From Dactylosporangium siamense (GTDB lineage: Bacteria; Actinomycetota; Actinomycetes; Mycobacteriales; Micromonosporaceae), in the NCBI RefSeq assembly GCF_016862795.1, contig NZ_BONQ01000056.1, positions 1 to 64,000 on the forward strand: DNA of 64,000 bases, given 5' to 3'. Below the pieces are notes generated by a model. The model was not told the origin of the DNA and ran no database searches. It worked only from the letters and a program-made list of their open reading frames with translations. The position numbers and the translations under genes were made by a program. Below are positions 2,698 through 15,256 of this stretch, one piece after another (positions within the stretch are counted from its first letter, which is position 1; the number at the start of each line of letters is the position of its first letter).

Positions 2698-3015
2698 TAG
2701 GAACACGGGCACGGAGTCGACCGCCTCGCGGTGCAGCCGGCCGACCAGCCGCGCCTGCTGGCGGTTGCCGGCCATCGCGATGGTCAGCTCCCGCGACAGG
2801 TCCAGTTGCCGCTGGACGAGCCGGCGGGCCCGGTCCGCGAGCGCGAGCGGCAGCGGCCCGAGACCGTCCGGCGGCGTGAACGTCACCGGTGTCACGGGCG
2901 CGGTCTCCAGCACGTCGCGGTGCCGCAGCAGCTGCTCGACCTCGTCCGCCTCCAGTTCCATCGCCTCCAGCGCGGCGACCCACGCGGTGTCCCACCCGTC
3001 GGGCGGGGACGTCAC
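2683..3015 (-). CDS. Small flagellar protein after FliS, FliT-like in position and size
   Basis: The 110-aa product is mostly helical, with charged heptad-like stretches (EADEVEQLLRHRDVLE and RARRLVQRQLDLSREL). GTG at 3015 overlaps the FliS stop by 4 bp (GTGA), so the two are translationally coupled. A longer open frame reaching 3183 lies inside fliS and is rejected as the start. Position (fliD-fliS-here), size and helical character fit a FliT-type export chaperone, but I see no diagnostic motif, so the function is inferred from context. The 3' end is formed by a 13-bp tandem repeat. Confidence 0.65.
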   Translation of the reverse strand: MTSPPDGWDTAWVAALEAMELEADEVEQLLRHRDVLETAPVTPVTFTPPDGLGPLPLALADRARRLVQRQLDLSRELTIAMAGNRQQARLVGRLHREAVDSVPVFLDNRS

Positions 3016-3398
3016 GGCCCGGCCCCGATCACCTGCGCCGCCGCCTCCCGCCACGCGTCGCGCAACTGCTCGGCGAAGCTCTGCACCGACTCGACCCTGC
3101 TCCGGTCGCCGGTCACGTTGGCCTGCACGAGTTCGGTGATCAGGAAGCTGTACAGCGAGGCCAGGCCGGGTCCACCGCTCCACGCGGTGGTGTCCAGCGT
3201 CGCCCGGAGCTCCATGATGATCTCCTGAGCGTGCTGCATCCGCCCTGATGCCGTCTGCCGGTCGCCCTGCTCGAGCGACTGACCCGCGATCATCAGGTCC
3301 AGCACGAGCCGGTCGTACAGCATCACCAGCAGCCGGGACGGGGGAGCGGTCGCGACGCTGTCACTGACGTAGCGGTTGCGCAGCGCTTGTGTGGTCAT
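3012..3398 (-). CDS. fliS: Flagellin export chaperone FliS
   Basis: This 128-aa protein has the FliS pattern: an N-terminal RYVSDSV segment, then PSRLLVMLYDRLVLDL and a four-helix body with AQEIIMELRATLD near residue 60. FliS binds the C-terminal D0 region of flagellin in the cytoplasm and delivers it to the flagellar export gate. Length matches the family. The ATG has a GGAG Shine-Dalgarno 6 bases upstream. It lies 30 bp after fliD and overlaps the next gene by 4 bp, so fliD-fliS-FliT-like form one operon. Confidence 0.93.
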   Translation of the reverse strand: MTTQALRNRYVSDSVATAPPSRLLVMLYDRLVLDLMIAGQSLEQGDRQTASGRMQHAQEIIMELRATLDTTAWSGGPGLASLYSFLITELVQANVTGDRSRVESVQSFAEQLRDAWREAAAQVIGAGP

Positions 3399-3428: not shown

Positions 3429-4796
3429 CTAGCCGAGTGAGGCGAGTTGTCCTGACAACCAGCTGCCCTGGTTCTTCAGCTTGCCCAGCGCGGTCTCCAT
3501 CGCGCCGAACTGTTTCTGCAGCGTCGCCTGGCGGGCCTGCAGCCGGACGTCCCAGTCGTCGACGCGGTGGTTGAGGTCCGTGATGGCGTCGTTGCCGCTG
3601 GTGATCAGGCGGGACAGCGTGCCGGTGTTGGTCTGCGTCGACTTGTCCGCCACGGCGGCCATCCTGTCGGCGAGGCCGGTCTTCAGGGTGACGTCGGTCT
3701 GCGCGGTGTCGGCGAAGAGCGCCTGCGTCTTCTCCGGGTCGGCGTTGAGGGCCGCGATGAACTTCGCCTTGTCGAACGTCAGCGTGCCGCTGCGGGTCAG
3801 CTCGATGCCGATCTCCTTGAAGCTGCCGCCGGCGGAGGTGCCGCCGGAGACGGTGTTCAGCACGCTGCTGGAGACGCTCGACATGATGCTGTTGCCGGCG
3901 AGCGGGCCACCGGCGACCGCGCCGCTCTTGTTCTTGGTCTGGGTGCCGATCTCCGACAGGGCCGTGTTCGCCGCGTCCACCATCGCCTGGACCTTGGCGG
4001 CGATGCCCTCGGTGTCACTGGCGACGGTGACCGTCACCGGCGGGTCGGTCTCCAGCTGCTTCTTCGTCGCGGTCACGGTCAGGCCGCCCATGAGGTCCTT
4101 GAACGTGTTCGTGGACGACGTCACGAGCAGCGGGGTCGCGGAGTCGCCGACGGCGAGCTCGGCGTCGGCGCCCTCGGAGACGGGGGTGACGTTGCCCAGG
4201 GCGGTGAACGGCGAGGTGTTGCCGTTCGGGAACTCGAACTTCGACAGTGCGCCGGTCGTGGTCGACGTGAGCTGCATCGTGTACTTGCCGGGGGAGACCT
4301 GGAAGGCGGTGGCCTTCACCCCGAGGTCGGGGGTCTTGTTGATCGCGTCGACGACGCCCTTGAGCGAAGGGTCGGCGACGTTGACCGTCTTGGGAACGCC
4401 GTTGACGTCGATCACGAACGACGGGTCGCTCATGATGGTGTCGGTGGTCGCGTCGACCGGGGTGCCGAAGACGACGGAGTGGGACGCGGCCAGCTTGTTC
4501 ACCCGGAAGGTCAGCGAGCCGCTCTGCGTGGCGCTCGACGCGGTGGTCGTGGCGGTGGCGGCGTCCGAGCTGGACGTGGCGACGCCGCCCTTCCAGGCGG
4601 TCGGGTCGGTGAGGACCTTGGCGGCGTCCAGCAGCCCCTTCATCTTGGCGTTGATGCCCTGATAGGCGGTGACGACCTTCTGCTGCGTGGTGATCTTGGT
4701 CTTGAGGGCGTTCTGTGGCGCCGCCTCGACCTGCATCAACCCGCTGATGACCGAGGAGGTGCTCATCCCTGAGATGAGGCCGTCGACGCTACCCAT
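3429..4796 (-). CDS. fliD: Flagellar hook-associated protein 2 (filament cap) FliD
   Basis: This 455-aa protein begins MGSVDGLISGMSTSSVISGL, the conserved FliD N-terminus, and ends with a helical region (GNDAITDLNHRVDDWDVRLQ) typical of the C-terminal coiled coil. FliD caps the growing filament and drives flagellin polymerisation. I place the start at the ATG at 4796 rather than 4817, because a perfect GGAGG lies 7 bases upstream and the family begins at that residue. The first flagellin gene lies upstream, separated by a hairpin at 4823-4852. No separate sigma-28 box is visible, so expression may come from read-through or an internal promoter. Confidence 0.93.
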   Translation of the reverse strand: MGSVDGLISGMSTSSVISGLMQVEAAPQNALKTKITTQQKVVTAYQGINAKMKGLLDAAKVLTDPTAWKGGVATSSSDAATATTTASSATQSGSLTFRVNKLAASHSVVFGTPVDATTDTIMSDPSFVIDVNGVPKTVNVADPSLKGVVDAINKTPDLGVKATAFQVSPGKYTMQLTSTTTGALSKFEFPNGNTSPFTALGNVTPVSEGADAELAVGDSATPLLVTSSTNTFKDLMGGLTVTATKKQLETDPPVTVTVASDTEGIAAKVQAMVDAANTALSEIGTQTKNKSGAVAGGPLAGNSIMSSVSSSVLNTVSGGTSAGGSFKEIGIELTRSGTLTFDKAKFIAALNADPEKTQALFADTAQTDVTLKTGLADRMAAVADKSTQTNTGTLSRLITSGNDAITDLNHRVDDWDVRLQARQATLQKQFGAMETALGKLKNQGSWLSGQLASLG

Positions 4797-4822
4797 GCTG
4801 GAACCTCCGTGAGACAAAGCGC

Positions 4823-4852
4823 GCGGGGAGGAAACCTGGGTCCCCTCCCCGC
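4823..4852 (-). terminator. Hairpin between flagellin 1 and fliD
   Basis: A 9-bp perfect GC stem (4823-4831 with 4844-4852) has a 12-base loop and lies just after the stop of the first flagellin gene. It probably attenuates transcription from the abundant flagellin mRNA into fliD. Confidence 0.6.
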
Positions 4853-4865
4853 CCTACGAGCGTTG

Positions 4866-5723
4866 TCAGCGCAGCAGTGACAACACGTTCTGCGGCGCCT
4901 GGTTGGCCTGGGCCAGCATGCTGGTGCCGGCCTGGGTCAGGATCTGTGATCTGGTGAAGGAGACCATCTCCTGGGCCATGTCCGTGTCCCTGATCCGGGA
5001 CTCGGACGCGGACAGGTTCTCCACTGCGACATTGAGGTTGTTGATGGTGTGCTCGAACCGGTTCTGGTACGCACCGAGCGTGGCCCGGGCGGTCGAGACC
5101 CCCTTGATCGCCGAGTCGATCGAGGTGATCGCGGCGGACGCGCCGGTCACCAGGTCGAGCCCGGCGACGCCGAGGCCGGTCGAGTCGAAACCGGTCACGC
5201 CGGTCACGCCGCCGAAGGCCGCGGTGCCGAGGCTGACCGTGATCTGGTCGGCGGACGCGGTGTTCGCGCCGACCTGGAACGTGCCGGTGTAGGACGTCGA
5301 AGGGTCGAGCAGGAGCTGCCCGCCGAACGCCGTCGTGGTGGCGATGCGGTCCAGCTCCTGGTTCAGCTGCACGAACTCGGTCTGCGCGGCGGTCCGTGCG
5401 TCCGAGTCCTGCGAACCCGTCGAGGCCGCCTGCACGGACAGGTCACGCATGCGCTGCAGGATGGAGTGCGTCTCGGTGAGCGCGCCTTCAGCGGTCTGCA
5501 CGACCGAGATGCCGTCCTGCGCGTTGCGCACCGCGACCTTCAGGCCACCGATCTGCGAGCGCAGGCCCTCACTGATCGACAGGCCGGCCGCGTCGTCCGC
5601 GGCCCGGTTGATCCGGAAACCCGACGACAGTTTCTCCAGCGACTTGCTCATCTGGTTGTCCGTCACGGACAGGTTCCGGTAGGAGTTCTGAGCGGCGATG
5701 TTGTTGTTGATCCGTAGACCCAT
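4866..5723 (-). CDS. Flagellin, copy 1
   Basis: This 285-aa flagellin lacks the large variable D2/D3 domains. The N-terminal D0/D1 region starts [20 protein letters not shown] and includes [20 protein letters not shown]; the C-terminal D0 ends [14 protein letters not shown]. It forms the extracellular filament after export by the flagellar type III system. It differs from copies 2 and 3 by scattered substitutions, for example LNQELD instead of LNAELD. Shine-Dalgarno AAGGAGG lies 7 bases from the ATG. A sigma-28-type promoter lies at 5775-5801 and a CsrA-type hairpin in the leader. Confidence 0.96.
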   Translation of the reverse strand: MGLRINNNIAAQNSYRNLSVTDNQMSKSLEKLSSGFRINRAADDAAGLSISEGLRSQIGGLKVAVRNAQDGISVVQTAEGALTETHSILQRMRDLSVQAASTGSQDSDARTAAQTEFVQLNQELDRIATTTAFGGQLLLDPSTSYTGTFQVGANTASADQITVSLGTAAFGGVTGVTGFDSTGLGVAGLDLVTGASAAITSIDSAIKGVSTARATLGAYQNRFEHTINNLNVAVENLSASESRIRDTDMAQEMVSFTRSQILTQAGTSMLAQANQAPQNVLSLLR

Positions 5724-5730
5724 GTCAGTT

Positions 5731-5762
5731 CCTCCTTGAGCTCGGTCCGGCCGTCCGTGGCC
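5731..5762 (-). promoter_or_regulatory. Predicted CsrA-binding leader of flagellin 1
   Basis: On the mRNA, a GGCC/GGCC stem (5759-5762 with 5749-5752) presents the hexaloop ACGGAC. A second ANGGA (AAGGA) forms the Shine-Dalgarno at 5731-5737. CsrA recognises ANGGA in hairpin loops and at ribosome sites. With csrA and fliW in the same cluster, translational repression relieved by FliW is likely. The stem is short, so support comes mainly from repetition in all three leaders. Confidence 0.55.
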
Positions 5763-5774
5763 TGTTCACGGAGC

Positions 5775-5801
5775 AGATCGGCCGAGCTCGCGGGGAGTTG
5801 A
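5775..5801 (-). promoter_or_regulatory. Sigma-28-type promoter of flagellin 1
   Basis: On the minus strand: TCAA (5798-5801), a 15-base spacer, and GCCGATCT (5775-5782). This matches the FliA/WhiG promoter class (TAAA/TCAA-N15-GCCGATAA). The predicted start lies about 45 bases before the ATG, leaving room for the structured leader. Confidence 0.8.
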
Positions 5802-5823
5802 GAAAGAACCGGTCGGCAACTGG

Positions 5824-5858
5824 CAGGGCACGGCGCCCTGGGTGGGTGCCGTGCCCTG
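5824..5858 (-). terminator. Terminator after flagellin 2
   Basis: An 11-bp perfect stem (5824-5834 with 5848-5858) has a 13-base loop, 34 bases past the stop of the second flagellin and upstream of the promoter of the first. Confidence 0.7.
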
Positions 5859-5891
5859 TCAAGCCCTCGTCAGGTCATCAACTCCAGCTCC

Positions 5892-6746
5892 TTAGCGCAG
5901 CAGCGAGAGGACGTTCTGCGGCGCCTGGTTGGCCTGGGACAGCATGCTGGTGCCGGCCTGGGTCAGGATCTGTGAGCGGGTGAACGACACCATCTCGGAG
6001 GCCATGTCCGTGTCCCGGATGCGCGACTCCGAGGCGGACAGGTTCTCCACGGCGGTGTTCAGGTTGTTGATGGTGTGCTCGAACCGGTTCTGGTATGCAC
6101 CGAGCGTGGCCCGAGCAGTCGAGACACCCTTGATCGCTGTGTCGATCGCGTCGATGGCCGCAGACGCGCCGCCCACGAGGTCAAGCGCGTTGACGCCGAG
6201 GCCGGTCGAGTCGAAGCCGGTGACCGCGACGCCACCGAAGGCGGCGGTGCCGAGGTTGACCGCGATCTGGTCAGCGGACGCGGTGTTCGCGCCGACCTGG
6301 AACGTGCCGGTGTAGGAGGCGGCCGGGTCGAGCAACTTCTGCCCGCCGAACGCCGTGGTGGTGGCGATCCGGTCCAGCTCAGCGTTCAGCTGAGTGAACT
6401 CGGTCTGCGCCGCCGTGCGCGCATCGGTGTCCTGCGAACCCGTCGACGAAGCCTGAACGGAGAGGTCACGCATACGCTGCAGGATGGAGTGCGTCTCGGT
6501 GAGAGCACCTTCAGCGGTCTGCACGACCGAGATGCCGTCCTGGGCGTTGCGCACCGCGACCTTCAGGCCGCCGATCTGGGACCGAAGACCCTCGCTGATC
6601 GAGAGGCCTGCCGCGTCGTCGGCGGCCCGGTTGATCCGGAAACCCGACGACAGCTTCTCCAGCGACTTGCTCATCTGGCCGTCCGTGACCGACAGGTTAC
6701 GGTAGGCGTTCTGAGCAGCGATGTTGTTGTTGATGCGAAGACCCAT
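5892..6746 (-). CDS. Flagellin, copy 2
   Basis: This 284-aa flagellin has the same D0/D1-only architecture as its two neighbours. It starts [20 protein letters not shown] and ends [14 protein letters not shown]. It is one residue shorter than the others in the middle segment (GGVAVTGFDS against [11 protein letters not shown]) and reads [16 protein letters not shown] near the C-terminus where the others have DTDMAQEM. It has its own promoter (6804-6830), a leader with a CsrA-type hairpin and a terminator, so it is an independent transcription unit. The separate units could allow different ratios of the three filament proteins. Confidence 0.96.
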   Translation of the reverse strand: MGLRINNNIAAQNAYRNLSVTDGQMSKSLEKLSSGFRINRAADDAAGLSISEGLRSQIGGLKVAVRNAQDGISVVQTAEGALTETHSILQRMRDLSVQASSTGSQDTDARTAAQTEFTQLNAELDRIATTTAFGGQKLLDPAASYTGTFQVGANTASADQIAVNLGTAAFGGVAVTGFDSTGLGVNALDLVGGASAAIDAIDTAIKGVSTARATLGAYQNRFEHTINNLNTAVENLSASESRIRDTDMASEMVSFTRSQILTQAGTSMLSQANQAPQNVLSLLR

Positions 6747-6752
6747 GAAGTT

Positions 6753-6791
6753 CCTCCTTGAATCGGGTCCGAATCCGGGCCATCCGTGGCC
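6753..6791 (-). promoter_or_regulatory. Predicted CsrA-binding leader of flagellin 2
   Basis: A GGCC/GGCC stem (6788-6791 with 6778-6781) carries hexaloop ACGGAU, and the Shine-Dalgarno AAGGAGG at 6753-6759 contains a second ANGGA. Spacing to the ATG is 6 bases. It has the same organisation as the leaders of flagellins 1 and 3. Confidence 0.55.
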
Positions 6792-6803
6792 TGGACGTAC
6801 TTC

Positions 6804-6830
6804 TCATCGGCGCTTCGCCTTGCTGCATAA
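6804..6830 (-). promoter_or_regulatory. Sigma-28-type promoter of flagellin 2
   Basis: On the minus strand: TTAT (6827-6830), a 15-base spacer, and GCCGATGA (6804-6811). The -35 box is the weakest of the three flagellin promoters, but the -10 and spacing are exact. Confidence 0.7.
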
Positions 6831-6878
6831 GGGTTCTGCGCAAAATTCCGGGAGAAGATCGGCCGGCGGAAACAGCGA

Positions 6879-6904
6879 CGGCGCCTCCGTGGGTGGAGGC
6901 GCCG
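6879..6904 (-). terminator. Terminator after flagellin 3
   Basis: A 10-bp perfect stem (6879-6888 with 6895-6904) has a 6-base loop, between the stop of the third flagellin and the promoter of the second. Confidence 0.7.
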
Positions 6905-6961
6905 CTGCTGCGTCATCACTGTGTCATCTGAGGAGGGTGGTGCGTGTCGGTGCGGTGCGGG

Positions 6962-7819
6962 CTAGCGCAGCAGGGACAGGACGTTCTGCGGCGCCTGGTT
7001 GGCCTGGGCCAGCATGCTGGTGCCGGCCTGGGTCAGGATCTGCGAGCGGGTGAAGGAGACCATCTCCTGGGCCATGTCCGTGTCCCTGATCCGGGACTCG
7101 GACGCGGACAGGTTCTCCACCGCGGTGTTGATGTTGTTGATCGTGTGCTCGAAGCGGTTCTGGTACGCACCGAGCGTGGCCCGAGCGGTCGAGACGCCCT
7201 TGATCGCGGTGTCGATCGCGGTGATGGCCGCCGAGGCGCCGGTCACCAGGCTGAGCGAGTTGACGCCGAGGCCGGTGGAGTCGAACCCGGTCACGCCGGT
7301 CACGCTGCCGAAGGCGGCGGTGCCGAGGTTGACCGCGATCTGGTCGGCCGTCGCGGTGTTGGCGCCGACCTGGAAGGTGCCGGTGTACGAACCCGCCGGG
7401 TCGAGCAGCTTCTGCCCGCCGAAGCTGGTCGTGGTGGCGATCCGGTCCAGTTCCGCGTTCAGCTGGGTGAACTCGGTCTGGGCCGCGGTCCGCGCGTCGG
7501 TGTCCTGCGAACCGGTCGACGACGCCTGCACGGACAGGTCACGCATGCGCTGCAGGATGGAGTGCGTCTCGGTGAGCGCGCCTTCAGCGGTCTGCACGAC
7601 CGAGATGCCGTCCTGCGCGTTGCGCACCGCGACCTTCAGGCCACCGATCTGGGACCGGAGACCCTCGCTGATCGACAGGCCGGCCGCGTCGTCCGCCGCC
7701 CGGTTGATCCGGAAACCCGACGACAACTTCTCCAGCGACTTGCTCATCTGGCTGTCGGTCACGGACAGGTTCCGGTAGGCGTTCTGGGCGGCGATGTTGT
7801 TGTTGATACGAAGACCCAT
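6962..7819 (-). CDS. Flagellin, copy 3
   Basis: This 285-aa flagellin starts [20 protein letters not shown] and ends [14 protein letters not shown], without D2/D3 insertions. Its middle segment ([20 protein letters not shown]) is closer to copy 1, while its LNAELD and [11 protein letters not shown] match copy 2. The trio therefore looks like a tandem array homogenised by recombination. Start, Shine-Dalgarno, leader hairpin and promoter follow the same layout as the other two. It is first in the array, directly downstream of the two sigma-28 genes. Confidence 0.96.
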
Positions 7820-7826
7820 GGTGATT

Positions 7827-7870
7827 CCTCCTTGATTCGGGTCGTGCTAAGCGGCCCGTCCTTGGCCCGC
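7827..7870 (-). promoter_or_regulatory. Predicted CsrA-binding leader of flagellin 3
   Basis: The mRNA segment from 7870 to 7851 folds into a GC hairpin whose loop shows AAGGAC, so the ANGGA consensus is kept although the base at N differs from flagellins 1 and 2. The Shine-Dalgarno AAGGAGG at 7827-7833 contains a second ANGGA. The stem has one G-G mismatch, or can slip to a 4-bp GGCC stem. Confidence 0.5.
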
Positions 7871-7879
7871 TCGCTCAAG

Positions 7880-7906
7880 ACATCGGCGTCCCGGCCCGAG
7901 GGATGA
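7880..7906 (-). promoter_or_regulatory. Sigma-28-type promoter of flagellin 3
   Basis: On the minus strand: TCAT (7903-7906), a 15-base spacer, and GCCGATGT (7880-7887). Confidence 0.75.
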
Positions 7907-7949
7907 GGAATCTGCTGGAGAAATTTTCCGCAACGCAACTACTACGCGA

Positions 7950-7980
7950 AGAGACCCGGTTCCGTGGGAACCGGGTCTCT
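7950..7980 (-). terminator. Terminator after the downstream sigma gene
   Basis: A 14-bp perfect stem (7950-7963 with 7967-7980) has a 3-base loop, two bases after the stop codon of the sigma factor at 7983. It isolates the sigma operon from the flagellin promoters. Confidence 0.8.
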
Positions 7981-7982
7981 GG

Positions 7983-8849
7983 TCAGGCGTGGAACGGGAT
8001 GCCCAGCGGCGTGGTGTGCGCCAGCCTGGTGGTCAGGTTGCCCTGATCCGCGATCTGGTTGTAGTACGCCTCGCGCCGGCGGGCGATGCAGCCGCCGGCT
8101 CGCTCCTGCGCGGCCATCAGCTGCGGGTCGAGGTGGTTGTTGAGCCCGTCGCGCAGCAGCACGAGGGCCTCGGAGCGCAGCTGGCTGATCCGGCTCTCCG
8201 TCACGCCCAGCTCCCGGGCGATGTCGTTCATCGGGCGTTCGTCGAAGAAGTACGCCGTGATGACCTGTCGCAGCCGCTCCGGCAGTGCGCCGATCGCGTG
8301 GTGCAGGTAGCCGATCTTCTCGCGGTGCAGGATCAGGTCCTCCGGGCCCGGGGTGCGCTCGGGGACGAGGTCCTCGGCGGTGCCGGCGGTGAACCCCTGC
8401 AGCGACAGCACGACCGCGCGCTGCACGTCCTCGCCGATCGCCTTGAGCTCCTCGGGTGCCACGCCGAGCGCCGCGGCCAGCTCCGCCTGGGTCGGGGTGC
8501 GGCCGAGGGTGGCGGTGAGCTCCTGCTGGGTGGTTTCGACCTTGCGGGCGCGGGTGCGGACGGATCGGCTGGCCCAGTCCAGGCCGCGCAGCTCGTCGAG
8601 GAGGGCGCCGCGGATGCGGGTGGTGGCGAAGCTGCCGAAGGGGATGCCGCGGCTGGGGTCGAAGCCCTTCGCGGCGTGTGCGAGCGCCGCCATGCCGGCC
8701 GAGACGAGGTCCTCACGGGACACGTGCGACGGCAGGCGGTTGAGCATCTCGCGGACGAGATGCCCGACGAGCGGCAGGTGCGCGCGGACGAGGTCCTCGC
8801 GCTCGCGGGCGGTGGTGCTGTGGAGCGTGTGGGTGGCGGTGGTGGTCAC
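7983..8849 (-). CDS. FliA/WhiG-family sigma-28 factor, paralogue A
   Basis: This 288-aa RNA polymerase sigma factor has region 2 (HLVREMLNRLPSHVSREDLV, then FGSFATTRIRGALLDELR), region 3 (TTQQELTATLGRTPTQAELA) and region 4 with the helix-turn-helix VTESRISQLRSEALVLL. This is the FliA/WhiG type that reads GCCGAT -10 boxes. I chose GTG at 8849 because AGAGG lies just upstream and the start context is identical in the paralogue; the open frame to 8933 gives an unlikely Cys-rich leader. It is second in an operon after paralogue B (gap 118 bp). Bases 8287-8714 are identical to 9302-9729 of the paralogue. Confidence 0.93.
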   Translation of the reverse strand: MTTTATHTLHSTTAREREDLVRAHLPLVGHLVREMLNRLPSHVSREDLVSAGMAALAHAAKGFDPSRGIPFGSFATTRIRGALLDELRGLDWASRSVRTRARKVETTQQELTATLGRTPTQAELAAALGVAPEELKAIGEDVQRAVVLSLQGFTAGTAEDLVPERTPGPEDLILHREKIGYLHHAIGALPERLRQVITAYFFDERPMNDIARELGVTESRISQLRSEALVLLRDGLNNHLDPQLMAAQERAGGCIARRREAYYNQIADQGNLTTRLAHTTPLGIPFHA

Positions 8850-8967
8850 GGCAACCTCTTCGTGGCAGGAGTGGGTCTTCGTGGGCCGGAGAACTCCCGG
8901 CAAGATCCAGCCTCTGTCACTTTGGGTACACAACTGGTCGCGCTTGGTTGCTAACTGGTTGTTGTCC

Positions 8968-9861
8968 TCAAGCCGCGTCGGGCAGCCCGATCACCGGCCC
9001 GGTGGTCGGCATCCCGAGCGCCGTGGTGTGCGCCAGCCGCGCGCTGAGGTCGCCCTGGCGCGCGATCTGGCTGTAGTACGCCTCGCGCCGGCGGGCCACG
9101 CAGCCGTTGCCCCGTTCCTGCGCGGCCACCATCAGCTGCGGGTCGAGGTGGTTGTTGAGCCCGTCGCGCAGCAGCACGAGGGCCTCGGAGCGCAGCTGGC
9201 TGATCCGCGACTCGGTGACGCCCAGCTCGGCGGCGATGTCGGTCATCGGCCGCTCCTGGAAGAAGTACGCGGTGACGACGTGCCGCAGCCGCTCCGGCAG
9301 CGCGCCGATCGCGTGGTGCAGGTAGCCGATCTTCTCGCGGTGCAGGATCAGGTCCTCCGGGCCCGGGGTGCGCTCGGGGACGAGGTCCTCGGCGGTGCCG
9401 GCGGTGAACCCCTGCAGCGACAGCACGACCGCGCGCTGCACGTCCTCGCCGATCGCCTTGAGCTCCTCGGGTGCCACGCCGAGCGCCGCGGCCAGCTCCG
9501 CCTGGGTCGGGGTGCGGCCGAGGGTGGCGGTGAGCTCCTGCTGGGTGGTTTCGACCTTGCGGGCGCGGGTGCGGACGGATCGGCTGGCCCAGTCCAGGCC
9601 GCGCAGCTCGTCGAGGAGGGCGCCGCGGATGCGGGTGGTGGCGAAGCTGCCGAAGGGGATGCCGCGGCTGGGGTCGAAGCCCTTCGCGGCGTGTGCGAGC
9701 GCCGCCATGCCGGCCGAGACGAGGTCCTCGCGGGACACGTGCGCGGGCAGCCGGCCGAGCATCTCGCGCACCAGGTGCCCCACCAGGGGCAGGTGGCTGC
9801 GCACGGCGGCGTCGAGCTCGGCGGCGCTGAACGAGGTCTGGGCTTCGGTGCTGACGGTCAC
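8968..9861 (-). CDS. FliA/WhiG-family sigma-28 factor, paralogue B
   Basis: This 297-aa sigma factor has the same domain order as its neighbour: region 2 with FGSFATTRIRGALLDELR, region 3, and the region 4 helix-turn-helix VTESRISQLRSEALVLL. It differs in the first 40 residues (VTVSTEAQTSFSAAELDAAV) and in the C-terminal tail (LGMPTTGPVIGLPDAA). The start is the GTG at 9861 with AGAGG upstream. A 29-bp stretch covering the start region (9857-9885) is identical to 8845-8873 of the paralogue. It is transcribed away from flgN. Either paralogue could drive the sigma-28-type promoters listed here; whether one serves sporulation (WhiG role) and one motility (FliA role) cannot be told from sequence. 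Confidence 0.93.
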   Translation of the reverse strand: MTVSTEAQTSFSAAELDAAVRSHLPLVGHLVREMLGRLPAHVSREDLVSAGMAALAHAAKGFDPSRGIPFGSFATTRIRGALLDELRGLDWASRSVRTRARKVETTQQELTATLGRTPTQAELAAALGVAPEELKAIGEDVQRAVVLSLQGFTAGTAEDLVPERTPGPEDLILHREKIGYLHHAIGALPERLRHVVTAYFFQERPMTDIAAELGVTESRISQLRSEALVLLRDGLNNHLDPQLMVAAQERGNGCVARRREAYYSQIARQGDLSARLAHTTALGMPTTGPVIGLPDAA

Positions 9862-9953
9862 GGCAACCTCTTCGTGGCAGGAGTTGGTCGAGAACCAGGC
9901 TCGGTGGCCACGGGTGCAGGTCGCGGTGACGCAAAGTTGCGGGGAGGTTGTAC

Positions 9954-9980
9954 TCAACCCTCGTATCGACCTGCCGACCT
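9954..9980 (+). promoter_or_regulatory. Sigma-28-type promoter of the flgN-flgK-flgL-fliW-csrA operon
   Basis: TCAA (9954-9957), a 15-base spacer, and GCCGACCT (9973-9980). The -10 has one change from GCCGATCT. The site lies 45 bases before the chosen flgN start and 93 bases from the divergent sigma gene. Confidence 0.7.
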
Positions 9981-10024
9981 ATGTGGGTGAAGCGATCGAT
10001 GACGTGGTGAAGGGCGGCACACGC

Positions 10025-10507
10025 ATGGGGCTGGCGGACCTCGCGAGCATCCTGTGGCGCGAGCGGGAGATGCTGGAGCTGCTGCTGTTCAAGCTCGAGG
10101 AGGAGCAGCTCGTCCTCGCGGGCGGACGCACCCGCTGGCTCGCGCACGCCACCCGTGAGGTCGAGGTCGTCCTGGAGGAGATCCGGCGCACGGAGGTCGT
10201 CCGCGCGGCGGAGGTCGAGGCGATCGGCGCCTCCCTCGGGCTCGGCCCGAACCCGAGCCTCACCCAGCTCGCCGAGGCCTCCCCGGCGCCGTGGTCAGAC
10301 CTGCTCAACCAGCACCGGATGGCGTTCCTGACGCTGACCGCCGAGGTCAGCGCGCTCGCCGAGGCCAACCGCGACATCCTCACCACCGGCGCGCGGGCCG
10401 CCCGCGAGACGATGCTGGCCGTCGCCGGATCCGTCGAGACCTACGGGCGGCGGGGGCAGACCGTCGGTTCGACCCCCCGCAACCGGCTGATTGACGAGGC
10501 GATGTAG
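10025..10507 (+). CDS. flgN: Flagellar hook-filament junction chaperone FlgN
   Basis: This 160-aa all-helical protein has an N-terminal coiled coil (WREREMLELLLFKLEEEQLV) and a second long helix (AFLTLTAEVSALAEANRDIL), matching FlgN, the cytoplasmic export chaperone of FlgK and FlgL. The family call rests on fold-like pattern and position directly before flgK. I chose ATG at 10025 because AAGGGCGG lies upstream. In-frame GTGs at 10004 and 10007 are alternatives, and the long upstream frame overlaps the divergent sigma gene. The flgK start follows its stop with no spacer. Confidence 0.85.
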   Translation: MGLADLASILWREREMLELLLFKLEEEQLVLAGGRTRWLAHATREVEVVLEEIRRTEVVRAAEVEAIGASLGLGPNPSLTQLAEASPAPWSDLLNQHRMAFLTLTAEVSALAEANRDILTTGARAARETMLAVAGSVETYGRRGQTVGSTPRNRLIDEAM

Positions 10508-11905
10508 ATGAGCACCTTCTCCGGCCTGAACAGCGCGCTGTCCGCCCTTTACGCGCAGCGCCGGGCGCTGGACATCACCGGCCAGAACGTCGCCAACGTC
10601 AACACCGAGGGCTACTCGCGGCAGCGGGTGGAGCTCTCCCCGGTCGAGAACGTGACCGAACCGGCCCGTTACTCGCTGTCCACCGGTGTCGGCGACGGCG
10701 TCAGGATCACCGGCGTCACCCGGCTGCACAACGAGTTCATGACCAACCGCACCCGGTCCGAGCACGGACTCAACGAGTACCTGCAGGCGCACAAGACCGT
10801 CTACGCCAACATCGAGCAGGCGCTCGGCGAGCCCAGCGACAGCGGCCTGCAGGCGCAGCTGTCGGAGTACTGGTCCGCCTGGTCCGACGTGGCCAACCGC
10901 CCCGGCGACACATCCGCCCGCACCGCGCTGCTCTCCCGCGCCAACACGGTCGCCGGCACGATGCGCACCACCCGCGCCAACCTCGGCGAGCTCTACACCG
11001 CCACCCGTGAACAGCTCGGCGCGGACGTCAACGTGGTCAACCAGACCACTGCGGGCATCGCCGACCTCAACGCCCGGATCTCCCTGGCCGGAGTCGCGGG
11101 CATGCCGACCAACGAGCTGTCCGACAAGCGCGACCAGCTGGTGCTGCGGTTGTCGGAGCTGACCGGCGCGACCGCCCGGACCAGACCGGACGGCAGCACC
11201 GACGTCCTGCTCGCCGGCGCCGTGATCGTGCAGGGTGACACGGTGCGCCAGTTGGAGGCGGTCGGCTCGCCCACCGTCGACGGGCGGGCCGCCGCACCAC
11301 CACAGGTGCAGTTCGTCGGCGGCGCCGTCGCCTCCATCACCAACGGCAAGATCGCCTCGCGGCTGGAGGCGCTCACCAAGACCATCCCGGACGCGGTGCA
11401 GGGCCTCGACAACGTCGCCGGCCTGCTCGTCTCGGCCGTCAACGCGCAGCACGCCCAGGGCTTCGACATCACCGTGGTGCCGCCGAGCACGGTCCCCACC
11501 CCGGTGCAGGGCGGCGCCTTCTTCTCGGGCACGGACGCCCGGACCATCGGCGTGGCGATCAGTGACCCGAGCAAGGTCGCCGCTTCCAGCACGGCCGTCA
11601 ACCCGTTCCAGGGCGACAACGCGATCGCGATGGCGGACCTGGCGAAGGAACCGAACGGCGCCGACGTCAGGTACCGCAACTTCGTGGTGGACACCGGCAT
11701 CGCGGCGCAGACGATCAACCGGCGCGCCGACGCGCAGCAGGTCATCTCCGACGACGTGACCTCGGCGGAGCAGGCCGAGTCCGGCGTCAGCCTGGATGAG
11801 GAGATGACCAACATGCTGCAGTTCCAGCGGGCGTACGAGGCGGCGGCGAAGGTCATCTCGGTGGTCGACACCACGTTGGACACGCTGATCAACATGAAAC
11901 GGTAG
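10508..11905 (+). CDS. flgK: Flagellar hook-associated protein 1 FlgK
   Basis: This 465-aa protein begins MSTFSGLNSALSALYAQRRA with the rod/hook signature GQNVANVNTEGYSRQRVEL. It ends with the conserved FlgK C-terminus LDEEMTNMLQFQRAYEAAAK and VVDTTLDTLINMKR. FlgK forms the first junction zone between hook and filament outside the cell. Length is slightly under that of enterobacterial FlgK, consistent with a reduced middle domain. Its ATG abuts the flgN stop (TAG ATG), so the two are co-translated. Confidence 0.95.
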   Translation: MSTFSGLNSALSALYAQRRALDITGQNVANVNTEGYSRQRVELSPVENVTEPARYSLSTGVGDGVRITGVTRLHNEFMTNRTRSEHGLNEYLQAHKTVYANIEQALGEPSDSGLQAQLSEYWSAWSDVANRPGDTSARTALLSRANTVAGTMRTTRANLGELYTATREQLGADVNVVNQTTAGIADLNARISLAGVAGMPTNELSDKRDQLVLRLSELTGATARTRPDGSTDVLLAGAVIVQGDTVRQLEAVGSPTVDGRAAAPPQVQFVGGAVASITNGKIASRLEALTKTIPDAVQGLDNVAGLLVSAVNAQHAQGFDITVVPPSTVPTPVQGGAFFSGTDARTIGVAISDPSKVAASSTAVNPFQGDNAIAMADLAKEPNGADVRYRNFVVDTGIAAQTINRRADAQQVISDDVTSAEQAESGVSLDEEMTNMLQFQRAYEAAAKVISVVDTTLDTLINMKR

Positions 11906-11916
11906 AGGGGGAACGG

Positions 11917-12807
11917 ATGCCCGGCTTCCGCGTCACGGAACGGTCCATGGCCAGCAACACGCTGGCGAACCTGCAGGTCAACCTCTCACGCAACCAGCAG
12001 CTGCAGGAGCAGCTCTCCAGCGGCAAGCTCATCACCAAGGCGTCGGACTCGCCCGGCGGCGCGGTGATCGCGATGCAGCACCGGGCGGACATGGAGACGC
12101 TCAACCAGTACTCCCGCAACGCCGACGACGGCATCGGCTGGCTGAACATGGCCGACACCGCGCTGCAGAGCGCGTCAACGCAGATGAACAAGGCCCGCGA
12201 GCTGGTGCTCTCCGGGCTGTCGAGCGGCGCGGCCGGCAGCGCGGAGGCGCGGGAGGCGATCGCCCTGGAGGTCGAGAACCTGCGCGACTCGATGATCAAC
12301 CTGTCGAACACCACGTTCCTCGACCGGCCGGTCTTCGGTGGCAGCACCCCCGGCGCCATCGCCTACGACAAGAACGGCGACTTCCAGGGCGATGACGGGA
12401 AGATCAACCGGACGATCAGCGGCAACGCCACCGTCCGGGTCGACACCAGCGGCGACGATGTCTTCGGCGCCGGCAACGGCAACGTCTTCAAGCTGCTCGG
12501 CCAGATCGCCGACGACCTGCGCAACAACCCCGCGGGGCTGCAGACCGACCTGGCCGGGGTCGACACGGCGCAGAAACGCATCCAGGCGGGCCTGTCCGGG
12601 GTAGGGTCCAGATCGAATCAGCTGTCCGAAATGCAACAAACAGCCCAGAACAGGGTGCTCGATCTGCGGGCGCAGCTCTCCGACGTCGAAGACATCGACC
12701 TGCCCAAGACGATCACCGAACTCGCTCTGCAGCAGACCGCCTACCAGGCCGCGCTCGCCGCCACCGCGAAGGTGATCCAGCCGTCGCTGGTCGACTTCCT
12801 GCGGTAG
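11917..12807 (+). CDS. flgL: Flagellar hook-associated protein 3 FlgL
   Basis: This 296-aa flagellin-like junction protein has N-terminal LANLQVNLSRNQQLQEQLSS and KASDSPGGAVIAMQHRADM, and C-terminal ITELALQQTAYQAALAATAK ending QPSLVDFLR. FlgL assembles between FlgK and the flagellin filament. ATG at 11917 has AGGGGG eight bases upstream and lies 11 bp after flgK. No D3-like insertion is seen. Confidence 0.94.
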   Translation: MPGFRVTERSMASNTLANLQVNLSRNQQLQEQLSSGKLITKASDSPGGAVIAMQHRADMETLNQYSRNADDGIGWLNMADTALQSASTQMNKARELVLSGLSSGAAGSAEAREAIALEVENLRDSMINLSNTTFLDRPVFGGSTPGAIAYDKNGDFQGDDGKINRTISGNATVRVDTSGDDVFGAGNGNVFKLLGQIADDLRNNPAGLQTDLAGVDTAQKRIQAGLSGVGSRSNQLSEMQQTAQNRVLDLRAQLSDVEDIDLPKTITELALQQTAYQAALAATAKVIQPSLVDFLR

Positions 12808-12838
12808 GCCGCGCCGCAAGCACACACGTGAGGAATCC

Positions 12839-13261
12839 ATGAGCGTCGCGACTGTGGGACACCCAGAGACCACCACGCTGCCGGTGATCGACTTCGTAGC
12901 GCCGATGCCGGGCTTCCCGGACGACCGCCGGTTCGTGCTGGTCCGCCTCGAGGACACCGGCATGCTGTACGCGCTGACCTCGGTCGACTCGGCCGGCCTG
13001 CGGTTCCTCGTGGTGCCGCCGGCGCAGTTCTTCCCCGACTACGCGCCGGAGATCGACGACGACGCGCTCGCCGCCCTCGGCGTCAGCGACGGCGAGGACC
13101 TGCTGGTCCTGCTCGTCGTCACCGCCGGCGACGGGGTCGAGGACGCCACCGTCAACCTGATGGCGCCGATCGTGCTCGACCAGCGCAGCCGCCGCGCCGT
13201 GCAGCTGGTCCTGAGCCGCAGTGGCCTGTCGGTGCGCCAGAAGCTCGTCGTCGTCGCCTGA
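12839..13261 (+). CDS. fliW: Flagellar assembly factor FliW
   Basis: This 140-aa protein matches FliW. It has the early [20 protein letters not shown] segment, then [20 protein letters not shown] and [20 protein letters not shown], the typical C-terminal beta-rich core. In Bacillus, FliW binds both flagellin and CsrA: free FliW sequesters CsrA so flagellin mRNA is translated, and secretion of flagellin releases FliW. ATG at 12839 has GAGGA upstream. The neighbouring csrA and the ANGGA-bearing flagellin leaders make the same switch likely here. Confidence 0.94.
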
Positions 13262-13332
13262 TCGGGTCTTCGCCATCGGCGGAACCGGCATATCGGGTAC
13301 TGTTCGCGTATCGCCCAGCGAAGGAGCGGCTT

Positions 13333-13575
13333 GTGCTCGTCCTGACCCGACGTCCCGGAGAAAGCGTGATGGTCGGTGACGACGTCGTCGTCACGGTGCT
13401 CGACGTGCGTGGCGACGTGGTGCGGTTGGGCATCAAGGCGCCGCGCAGCATCCAGGTCCACCGCGAAGAGGTCTACCGCGAGCTGCAGAAGGTCAACCGT
13501 GAGGCCGCGTCGCCCAGCGACGTCGCCGTGCGGGCCCTGAGCCGCATGCTCCGCGCCGACGTCGAGCAGCAGTAG
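13333..13575 (+). CDS. csrA: Translational regulator CsrA
   Basis: This 80-aa protein begins [20 protein letters not shown], the invariant CsrA beta-1 RNA-binding strand, followed by [20 protein letters not shown] and [11 protein letters not shown] with the conserved RNA-contacting Arg region. CsrA dimers bind ANGGA motifs and block ribosome access. The gene lies 71 bp after fliW; GTG at 13333 has AAGGAG 8 bases upstream. Its tail beyond residue 60 is longer than in E. coli CsrA, which is common in Gram-positive homologues. Confidence 0.95.
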
Positions 13576-13593
13576 CGGGTTAAACCCGACTTC

Positions 13594-13620
13594 TCAGGAC
13601 TTCCCCGCCGATGCCGATAG
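13594..13620 (+). promoter_or_regulatory. Sigma-28-type promoter of the chemoreceptor gene
   Basis: TCAG (13594-13597), a 15-base spacer, and GCCGATAG (13613-13620). The -10 is close to the ideal GCCGATAA. It lies 34 bases before the ATG at 13655. A TAAA at 13581 is too far away to serve as the -35. Confidence 0.65.
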
Positions 13621-13654
13621 GCCCGATGGGTAACGCCTCGAGAAGGGCACGTCC

Positions 13655-15256
13655 ATGGCCGCACTGCGCGGATGGGTACGAAACCGGCCGATCGTCGCCA
13701 AGCTCGGCGCGATCTTCATCGTTTCCCTCCTCACCGTCGTCGCGCTGCTCCTCGTCGGAGTCCGGGCGCTGTCCGACGGCGAGGAACGGGCCCGCCAGCT
13801 GGAGCAGGTCGGCCAGCTGACCAGGCAGACCCTCGAGGCGGACATGGCGCACGACGCCATCCGCGGCGACGTGCTCCGCATGCTCCTGGCCGCCTCCCGC
13901 GGCGGCGACGTCAGCGCCGAGGCCGCCGAGGTCAAGGCCGACCTCGCCGACCACAGCGCGATCCTCGGCGGGGTCGTCACCACCTTCACCGCGCCGGCCA
14001 TGGACGCCTCCGTCCAGGCGGCCGCGCGGATCGTCGCCCCGGCCATCGCGAACTACATCGACCTCGCCGGGCAGACCGTCACGGCCGCGATCGGCGGCGA
14101 CCGCGCTCCCGCCTCGTACGCCGCCTTCCAGACCGCCTTCTCCGAGGTGGAGGAGAAGCTGCCCGGCGTCAGCGACGCGCTCGAACAGGTCGCCGCGGCC
14201 GCCTCGAAGTCCGTGGGCGACGAGCGCGACCGGGCCGTGGTGATGCTCTCCACCGCCGGCCTCATCGGCCTGCTGCTCACCGCCGCGATCAGCTGGCTCG
14301 TCACGCGCGGCATCATCGTGCCGCTGCGGGACGTGTCGGTCGTGCTCAACGGCATGGCCGAGGGCGACCTCTCGCACACCTCGAAGGTCGACTCCACCGA
14401 CGAGGTCGGCCGGATGGCCCGCGACCTCAACCGGGCCATCGGCAGCGTCCGCGGCACCGTGCAGTCCCTGTCCACGTCGGCGCGCACCGTCGCCGCCTCC
14501 GCCGACGAACTGTCCGGCGCGTCGCAGCGGATCGTCTCCGCCGCCGCGCTCGCCAGCGACCGGGCCGGCGCCGCCAACCACGCCGCCGGCGAGGTCTCGC
14601 AGAACGTCGACACCCTGGCGTCGGCGAGCGAGGAGATGGGCGGCTCGATCGCGGAGATCTCCCGCAACGCCAACGACGCGCTGCGGGTCGCCGGCGACGC
14701 GGTCGCCATGGCCGACCAGACCAACACGATGATGTCCCGCCTGGGCGCCTCCTCCGTCGAGATCGGCAACGTGGTCAAGGTGATCACCTCGATCGCCGAA
14801 CAGACCAACCTGCTCGCCCTCAACGCCACCATCGAGGCCGCCCGCGCCGGCGACGCGGGCAAGGGCTTCGCGGTCGTCGCCGGCGAGGTCAAGGAGCTCG
14901 CCCAGGAGACCGCCCGGGCCACCGACGACATCAGCGGCCGCGTCGAGCAGATCCAGGCCGACACCGACCGGGCCATCGAGGCGATCAGCGAGATCGGCTC
15001 GATCATCGCCCGCATCAACGACTTCCAGGTCACCATCGCCAGCGCCGTCGAGGAGCAGACCGCCTCCACCCAGGAGAGCAGCCGGACCGTCACGGACGTG
15101 GCCACCCGCACCGGCGAGATCGCCGCCACCATCGCCGACATCGCCGACGTGGCCAACCGCAACACCGCCGAGGCCGACACCTCGCTGACCGCGGCCCGCC
15201 AGCTCGCCGGCATGGCCGAGGACATGAACGCCCTGGTGGCCCGTTTCCGTTTCTGA
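13655..15256 (+). CDS. Methyl-accepting chemotaxis protein
   Basis: This 533-aa chemoreceptor has a first membrane segment (about 15-35, [17 protein letters not shown]), an extracellular helical sensor of about 160 residues, and a second membrane segment (about 195-217, [18 protein letters not shown]). HAMP follows (about 218-270, [20 protein letters not shown]), then the cytoplasmic signalling domain with the highly conserved hairpin tip [20 protein letters not shown] and [20 protein letters not shown]. It would control CheA activity and flagellar rotation. A sigma-28-type promoter places it in the flagellar regulon. The sensor domain resembles 4-helix-bundle types, so the ligand cannot be predicted. 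Confidence 0.94.

Follow-up and report, generated by a model that had tools for sequence, protein, structure and literature searches.

Three flagellin genes lie on the minus strand of a Dactylosporangium siamense contig (NZ_BONQ01000056.1, assembly GCF_016862795.1), and the leader of each carries a small hairpin exposing the motif ANGGA in its loop, followed by a Shine-Dalgarno (SD) sequence that contains the same motif. What is this arrangement for? The window, i.e., the whole stretch of DNA analyzed here, comprises the first 64,000 nucleotides (nt) of the contig and belongs to a genome of 12.7 megabases (Mb) in 296 contigs. A preliminary description of the window proposed that the flagellin mRNAs are under the control of CsrA and FliW, a proposal supported by sequence comparisons: the hairpin recurs in 149 of 151 leaders, its stem covaries, and csrA and fliW occur together. 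We consider it very likely that the flagellin leaders are two-site CsrA targets, through which a CsrA-FliW partner switch would act on translation.

Two putative CsrA sites in flagellin leaders

The hairpins of the window (loop letters in square brackets) read GGCC[ACGGAC]GGCC for flagellin 1 (5749-5762), GGCC[ACGGAT]GGCC for flagellin 2 (6778-6791), and GGGCC[AAGGAC]GGGCC for flagellin 3 (7853-7868), all on the minus strand, the stem of the last one including an internal G-G mismatch. Their loops place ANGGA, the upstream putative CsrA site, at 5754-5758, 6783-6787 and 7859-7863, respectively. The second ANGGA lies within the SD sequence AAGGAGG (5731-5737, 6753-6759 and 7827-7833, minus strand). 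Coordinates and folds agree with the earlier claim that all three leaders carry both motifs, and the 16-25 nt said to separate them were measured as 16, 23 and 25 nt for flagellins 1, 2 and 3; the site-to-site distance is 21-30 nt in the leaders of this genome. Three paralogous flagellin mRNAs had been announced, which is correct for the window, but the genome has four, the fourth gene being unlinked and located on contig 77 (L141:2363-3220; 285 amino acids (aa) counted from the ATG). Its product is 98% identical to flagellin 3 within the aligned segment, and its leader reads GGGCC[AAGGAC]GGCCC, then AAGGAGG, with a GCCGAT element of its own. Both motifs are present in the four flagellin leaders found in the genome (4/4). 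D. vinaceum likewise has an unlinked flagellin (L007).

In folds of the inferred mRNAs, taken to begin 6 nt after GCCGATNN (an inferred, unmapped start), the loop ANGGA has a mean unpaired probability of 0.97, 0.86 and 1.00 for flagellins 1 to 3 and of 1.00 for the fourth leader, values which apply to the inferred mRNA only. The SD ANGGA is mostly unpaired in the same folds (0.57-0.81). An alternative structure of the flagellin 1 leader, obtained from an 80-nt fold including upstream DNA, was misleading because the upstream part holds the probable promoter, and it is gone on folding from the assumed mRNA start. A hairpin sequestering the SD was ruled out, the SD being mostly unpaired, and so was an attenuator, as the stems in this genome are not followed by a T run.

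The alignment of leaders from related genomes, proposed as a check in the preliminary description, was carried out on leaders from 80 loci of named records and from further genomes of the same class. The named records are mostly Actinomycetes, with some metagenome assemblies named to phylum and one labelled as an unverified Bacillus, and their class was taken unchecked. Flagellin matches were excluded if they shared less than 40% identity with flagellin 3, lacked a nearby start codon or had less than 80 nt upstream; leaders shorter than 70 nt or containing N were removed next, and finally redundant ones; from 200 leaders, 162 of them distinct, 151 were kept (three from the window, 93 from the 80 named-record loci, and 55 from further genomes of the class, including L141). 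A hairpin with a folding energy of -3 kcal/mol or better, enclosing an ANGGA located at -72 to -19, was found in 149 of these 151 non-redundant leaders, compared with 478 of 3020 dinucleotide-shuffled leaders and 233 of 3000 random windows. The hairpin remained just as common (93 of 95) when leaders were collapsed at 60% identity. The same test was positive for few leaders of other cluster genes (flgL 6/55, flgK 7/70, fliD 5/116, fliS 1/71, fliW 0/28, sigma 2/23) and gave a raised figure for csrA (14/50). The loop is closed by a C-G pair in 141 of the 151 leaders. A C-G pair also closes the loop of hcnA, an RsmE target. Two Actinoplanes/Amorphoplanes loci (L009 and L072) have the hairpin as well.

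An ANGGA near the SD was detected in 145 of the 151 flagellin leaders versus 50 of 258 generic genes with an SD, and both sites, hairpin loop and SD, occur together in 143. Among cluster genes, the corresponding figures are 6/53 for flgL, 2/70 for flgK, 45/116 for fliD, 22/71 for fliS, 31/50 for csrA, 3/28 for fliW and 0/23 for sigma. It would take a stack of coincidences for the hairpin to serve only 5' stability and the SD only ribosome binding, with ANGGA due to chance in a GC-rich genome: GGCC stems do form readily where GC content is high and AAGGAGG is an ordinary SD, but neither the 478 of 3020 shuffled leaders with a loop ANGGA nor the 50 of 258 generic genes with an SD ANGGA come near the flagellin leaders. 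At the variable position of the SD motif, the 145 flagellin leaders have A (92), G (28) or C (25). Because a C at this position breaks pairing with 16S ribosomal RNA and a G weakens it, the A and the GGA seem to be maintained by something besides ribosome pairing.

The position of this second site also bears on another explanation, according to which CsrA binds the leaders but mainly stabilizes or activates flagellin mRNA, or the leaders titrate CsrA as a sponge. The C. jejuni flaA leader is both repressed by CsrA and titrates it (PMC4894983; here, as for the other papers cited, with a PMC number, in the excerpts available of the text). CsrA can also activate, and a hairpin close to the inferred 5' end could protect the mRNA. 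Having ANGGA at the SD, as 145 of 151 leaders do, is nonetheless the geometry of translational repression, and no other such leader stands out among the scored candidates of the D. siamense genome, so that there may be little to titrate CsrA for. We regard stabilization or titration as unlikely compared with the repression of translation by CsrA.

The scored candidates come from a search with R1, a covariance model of the leaders, which was applied to 150 of 14808 first-look candidates in this genome. The four flagellin leaders came out at expectation values (E) of 3e-12 to 1.8e-7 (1.8e-7, 5.1e-10 and 3.1e-12 for flagellins 1, 2 and 3), scores which are not a test as the four leaders are included in the model; what does serve as a test is the gap that separates them from the next match. 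This one has E 0.007, which is the level of genomes in which flagellin had no match: among 14 such genomes, the best R1 E value was 0.001 to 0.072 in 12 and there was no match at E <= 0.1 in two. Across 296 genomes of the phylum, searched with stricter filters, ten had a match at E 1e-4 or better, and these matches adjoin flagellin only in G000, G048 and G739; G030, matched earlier, was lost under the stricter filters. The flagellin of G114 had no R1 match at E <= 0.1, though its leader reads GGGGC[AAGGAT]GCCCC. R1 is insensitive beyond near relatives, and leaders from outside the class were therefore examined directly.

Stem covariation and the promoter-like element

Is the hairpin an RNA element or a DNA one? 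We compared stem positions across 118 aligned leaders, in which two misaligned rows (L048 and L058) were retained. Stem cells are paired in 88.8% of cases, versus 61.4% when partners are shuffled and at most 51.2% when the stem is slid, and the covariation score is 0.581, versus 0.159 shuffled and at most 0.160 slid. Cells changed on both sides number 184, against 56.4 in shuffled alignments. Shuffle controls can be inflated by sequence relatedness, which the slid control retains. For stem pairs 2 to 7, mutual information reaches 0.55-0.98, while permuted maxima are at most 0.16. Loop letters are constant, while stem letters vary with compensation. Because of this pattern, the hairpin is best read from these alignments as the candidate target of an RNA-binding protein that recognizes the loop rather than as a DNA operator.

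The neighborhood of the hairpin could nevertheless be seen otherwise, as a promoter-like element lies shortly upstream of the repeat. SCGAW, a GCCGAT-like motif, is found 15-45 nt upstream of the loop in 117 of 148 leaders (at 22-24 nt in 83 of them), versus 723 of 5000 random windows, and CCTCA forms the majority letters about 20 nt further upstream. Probable -10 elements of the sigma-28 type are GCCGATCT for flagellin 1 (5775..5782), GCCGATGA for flagellin 2 (6804..6811) and GCCGATGT for flagellin 3 (7880..7887), all on the minus strand, with CCTCA at 7904-7908 as the probable -35 of the latter. The two motifs together probably constitute an actinobacterial flagellar sigma promoter. With the GCCGAT-like element read in this way, the mRNA would start a few bases before the hairpin and the inferred leader would be about 45-54 nt long. 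An inverted repeat in such a position might belong to the promoter or serve as a DNA operator instead of an RNA site. A DNA-binding dimer would, however, constrain the arms, whereas it is the loop that is conserved and the stems that vary with compensation. We rejected the operator on this ground and find it very improbable.

The loop of the flagellin leaders matches the ANGGAN hexaloop bound by RsmE and is close to the CsrA consensus RUACARGGAUGU (PMC7652899) obtained by systematic evolution of ligands by exponential enrichment (SELEX). A scan of positions 4000-14000 of the window against Rfam returned no family matching the hairpin element at E <= 0.5, the best match, CcsR1, being at chance level (E 0.63; 19.1 bits versus a gathering score of 65.3). 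A small RNA (sRNA) antagonist of the CsrB type had no Rfam match at E <= 1 in that same stretch, the only one scanned. The element is thus a covarying RNA element without an Rfam family match in the scanned stretch.

Exceptions and the presence of csrA and fliW

Several observations weigh against two-site control of flagellin by CsrA. First, an ANGGA within AAGGAGG is automatic, and any SD with these letters has the second site trivially. Of the paired motifs put forward in the preliminary description, the loop site stands above chance, but the SD site is uninformative in this genome alone because AAGGAGG always contains ANGGA; the putative SD site becomes informative only through comparison with relatives, which retain ANGGA despite changes at its variable base. 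Second, covariation is uneven: among the five measures, the one that counts pairs showing any two-sided change has no excess (6 versus 5.8 shuffled), stem pairs 1 (a nearly constant C-G) and 8 do not rise above the highest permutation in mutual information, and stem pair 3 is formed in only 74% of leaders. Third, flagellin as the only target stays unproven, as 150 of 14808 candidates were scored. Fourth, two of the 151 leaders, from D. vinaceum (L005/L133) and Modestobacter (L022), have no loop site. Finally, the hairpin is missing from 23 of 51 leaders from outside the class, yet csrA and fliW are each present in 46 of the 47 genomes there that have a flagellin-domain match.

The first exception within the class is a D. 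vinaceum paralogue (L005 before 11047, the same gene as L133 before 1488), which has kept the GGCC stem and the SD ANGGA and has GCGCGA as its loop. The other one is the second Modestobacter flagellin (L022 at 8701), which has no loop ANGGA. Other flagellins of both genomes do have the loop site. The set from outside the class originally included 53 leaders from 41 of the 47 genomes, reduced to 51, and contains doubtful starts or non-flagellins (L275 at 3633, L276, and L258 at 713), which lower the hairpin figure of 28 leaders out of 51; an SD ANGGA is present in 45. In family f62, none of the five loci has the hairpin (L231, L232, L236 and L237 are without ANGGA, and L234 is below threshold), and the five genomes carry csrA in all cases and fliW in four. 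The preliminary description considered that its proposal would be undermined by leaders losing the loop ANGGA while flagellin and csrA are kept. Such losses exist, in two paralogues whose siblings keep the site and, outside the class, in up to 23 of the 51 leaders, and the loop site is consequently not obligatory. As these leaders coexist with csrA and fliW, the CsrA-FliW pair does not demand the hairpin. Across the leaders compared, the putative SD site is the more general part, and the putative hairpin site comes in addition to it and is almost universal in the Actinomycetes leaders examined.

There were 121 genomes with a flagellin-domain match, from which five below the cut-off were dropped, leaving 116; csrA and fliW were sought in 80 of these, which belong to the class. 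Both genes were found in the same 74 of these 80 genomes, and the same six lack both. Two of the six, G378 and G269, which are of one genus (7.6 and 9.2 Mb), have flagellin-like genes (L144:2653-3579 and L161). No ANGGA hairpin was seen by eye in one leader from each of them; these genes are orphan-like, which makes them a weak control. G032 has only a divergent flagellin match (E 3.9e-13). The remaining three, G450, G023 and G370, are incomplete assemblies (82, 80 and 63%). As G450 and G023 are incomplete and have the hairpin, csrA is probably missing from them through gaps in the assembly.

The D. siamense genome has a single csrA match. The window CsrA aligns over residues 2-74 to the CsrA chain (5dmb_D) of the FliW-CsrA entry 5dmb, beyond the reach of the 55- and 61-residue chains 7yr6_E and 1y00_A, so that this 80-aa protein has the C-terminal extension expected in a CsrA-FliW switch, and the window FliW matches the FliW chain of 5dmb (E 6.9e-21). 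The window CsrA has L4, R44, L51 and N55. L4 and R44 are RNA-binding residues of CsrA (PMC7652899), and C. jejuni CsrA needs V51 and N55 to bind FliW (PMC7829508), positions which we equated with L51 and N55 by their numbers, not by alignment. Across 55 loci, position 4 is L in 52, position 44 is R in 51, position 51 is L in 33, I in 16 and V in 6, and N55 is present in 49.

Gene cluster, proposed switch and known systems

Flagellin genes 1 (4866..5723, 285 aa), 2 (5892..6746, 284 aa) and 3 (6962..7819, 285 aa) are on the minus strand and were identified by Pfam (Flagellin_N and Flagellin_C for flagellin 1); flagellin 3 is closest to other Dactylosporangium flagellins (87-93% identity). On the same strand are fliS, the flagellin chaperone gene (3012..3398, PF02561), and a fliD-like gene (about 3429-4793), named by sequence and position, without a domain scan. 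Two genes for sigma-70 family factors of the flagellar cluster follow (7983..8933, with Sigma70_r2/r3/r4 domains, and 8968..9957, also by Pfam; both minus). These tandem sigma genes share 90.6% identity across an alignment of 889 nt, in which one uninterrupted stretch of 428 nt is identical, a similarity that suggests a recent duplication or gene conversion. The plus strand carries flgK and flgL (Pfam) alongside fliW, the gene of the expected CsrA antagonist (12839..13261, PF02623, E 7e-33), and csrA (13333..13575, 80 aa, GTG start, PF02599, E 6.4e-25), so that csrA and fliW do lie in the flagellin cluster, as first described. In Actinosynnema pretiosum, which has one flagellin, the gene order is fliS-fliD-flagellin-fliA-flgN-flgK-flgL-fliW-csrA (PMC9019756).

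The csrA leader of the window has AAGGA at the SD only. In 11 of 15 Geodermatophilaceae csrA loci (L022, L030, L041, L046, L048, L055, L056, L058, L059, L070 and L073; family assigned by genus name), the csrA leader has two sites in a flagellin-like geometry, with an ANGGA, often in GCC[ACGGAC]GGC, at -32 to -39 and ATGGAG at the SD (ACGGAG in L073); three of the remaining loci have a doubtful start codon. Because these leaders share the two-site geometry of flagellin leaders, they suggest that CsrA may repress its own mRNA in Geodermatophilaceae.

How would such a switch operate? By analogy with Bacillus subtilis and Campylobacter jejuni, from which CsrA binding, repression, FliW antagonism and the checkpoint are extrapolated, a CsrA dimer would hold the hairpin-loop ANGGA with one face and the SD ANGGA with the other, bridging 21-30 nt and blocking ribosomes on all four flagellin mRNAs. 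Before hook completion, cytoplasmic flagellin would hold FliW, leaving CsrA free to repress. Flagellin export would then free FliW, which would bind CsrA beside its RNA pockets, and translation would start. The conservation of the hairpin suggests that flagellin synthesis waits until the flagellum can incorporate the product. Flagellar genes of Actinoplanes missouriensis are reported to be transcribed simultaneously, with no checkpoint at the level of transcription, and a 2021 review raises the question of what gates filament synthesis in Actinoplanes zoospores. The hairpin bears on that question, and the GGA of its loop offers a concrete site to mutate. We tentatively propose, as a possibility we would not bet on, that in zoospore formers the flagellin switch is the missing filament checkpoint, CsrA being a dedicated flagellin regulator whose gene is self-repressing in Geodermatophilaceae. 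Natural mutants, namely the paralogue that lost the loop and kept the stem and the deep lineages with csrA and fliW and no hairpin, could reveal the contribution of the upstream site beyond that of the SD site.

Among the closest known systems is that of B. subtilis Hag, where csrA and fliW occur together and the flagellin leader has two sites, one over the SD (PMC7652899, PMC6529632), as proposed for D. siamense. In contrast with B. subtilis and its single flagellin mRNA, there are four here, in an actinomycete host, with putative CsrA sites, the first of which sits near the predicted 5' end, in a C[ANGGAY]G hexaloop hairpin that is almost the same in all leaders. The 45-nt leader of C. jejuni flaA forms two stem-loops with ANGGA, of which the second covers the ribosome site, and shows compensatory changes (PMC4894983). 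The leaders described here are similarly short (about 45-54 nt, inferred), with an ANGGA in the first stem-loop, compensatory changes, and a further ANGGA over the ribosome site, but the second site is in a stem-loop in C. jejuni, whereas the SD ANGGA is mostly unpaired here. RsmE and hcnA share the same ANGGAN hexaloop type (PMC7652899), although this target is gammaproteobacterial and the regulator is antagonized by sRNAs, not by FliW.

In the open-licence literature, which includes few subscription journals, we recognized among the matches listed no report of the hairpin, of its covariation or of CsrA binding for actinobacterial flagellin leaders. Actinobacteria were named as possible FliW users in 2015 (PMC4682653). 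A close precedent is Kineococcus radiotolerans, of the same phylum and with csrA in a motility island, for which CsrA control of flagellin was proposed in 2008 from a 9-of-12 match to the Bacillus SD site BS2 (PMC2587704). That proposal concerns one gene and an SD site only; the excerpts of the paper name no hairpin site or comparative test, and the term 'fliW' is absent from its main text. CsrA control of flagellin has thus already been proposed in Actinobacteria, and the new part, with respect to the papers listed, would be the leader hairpin and its comparative support.

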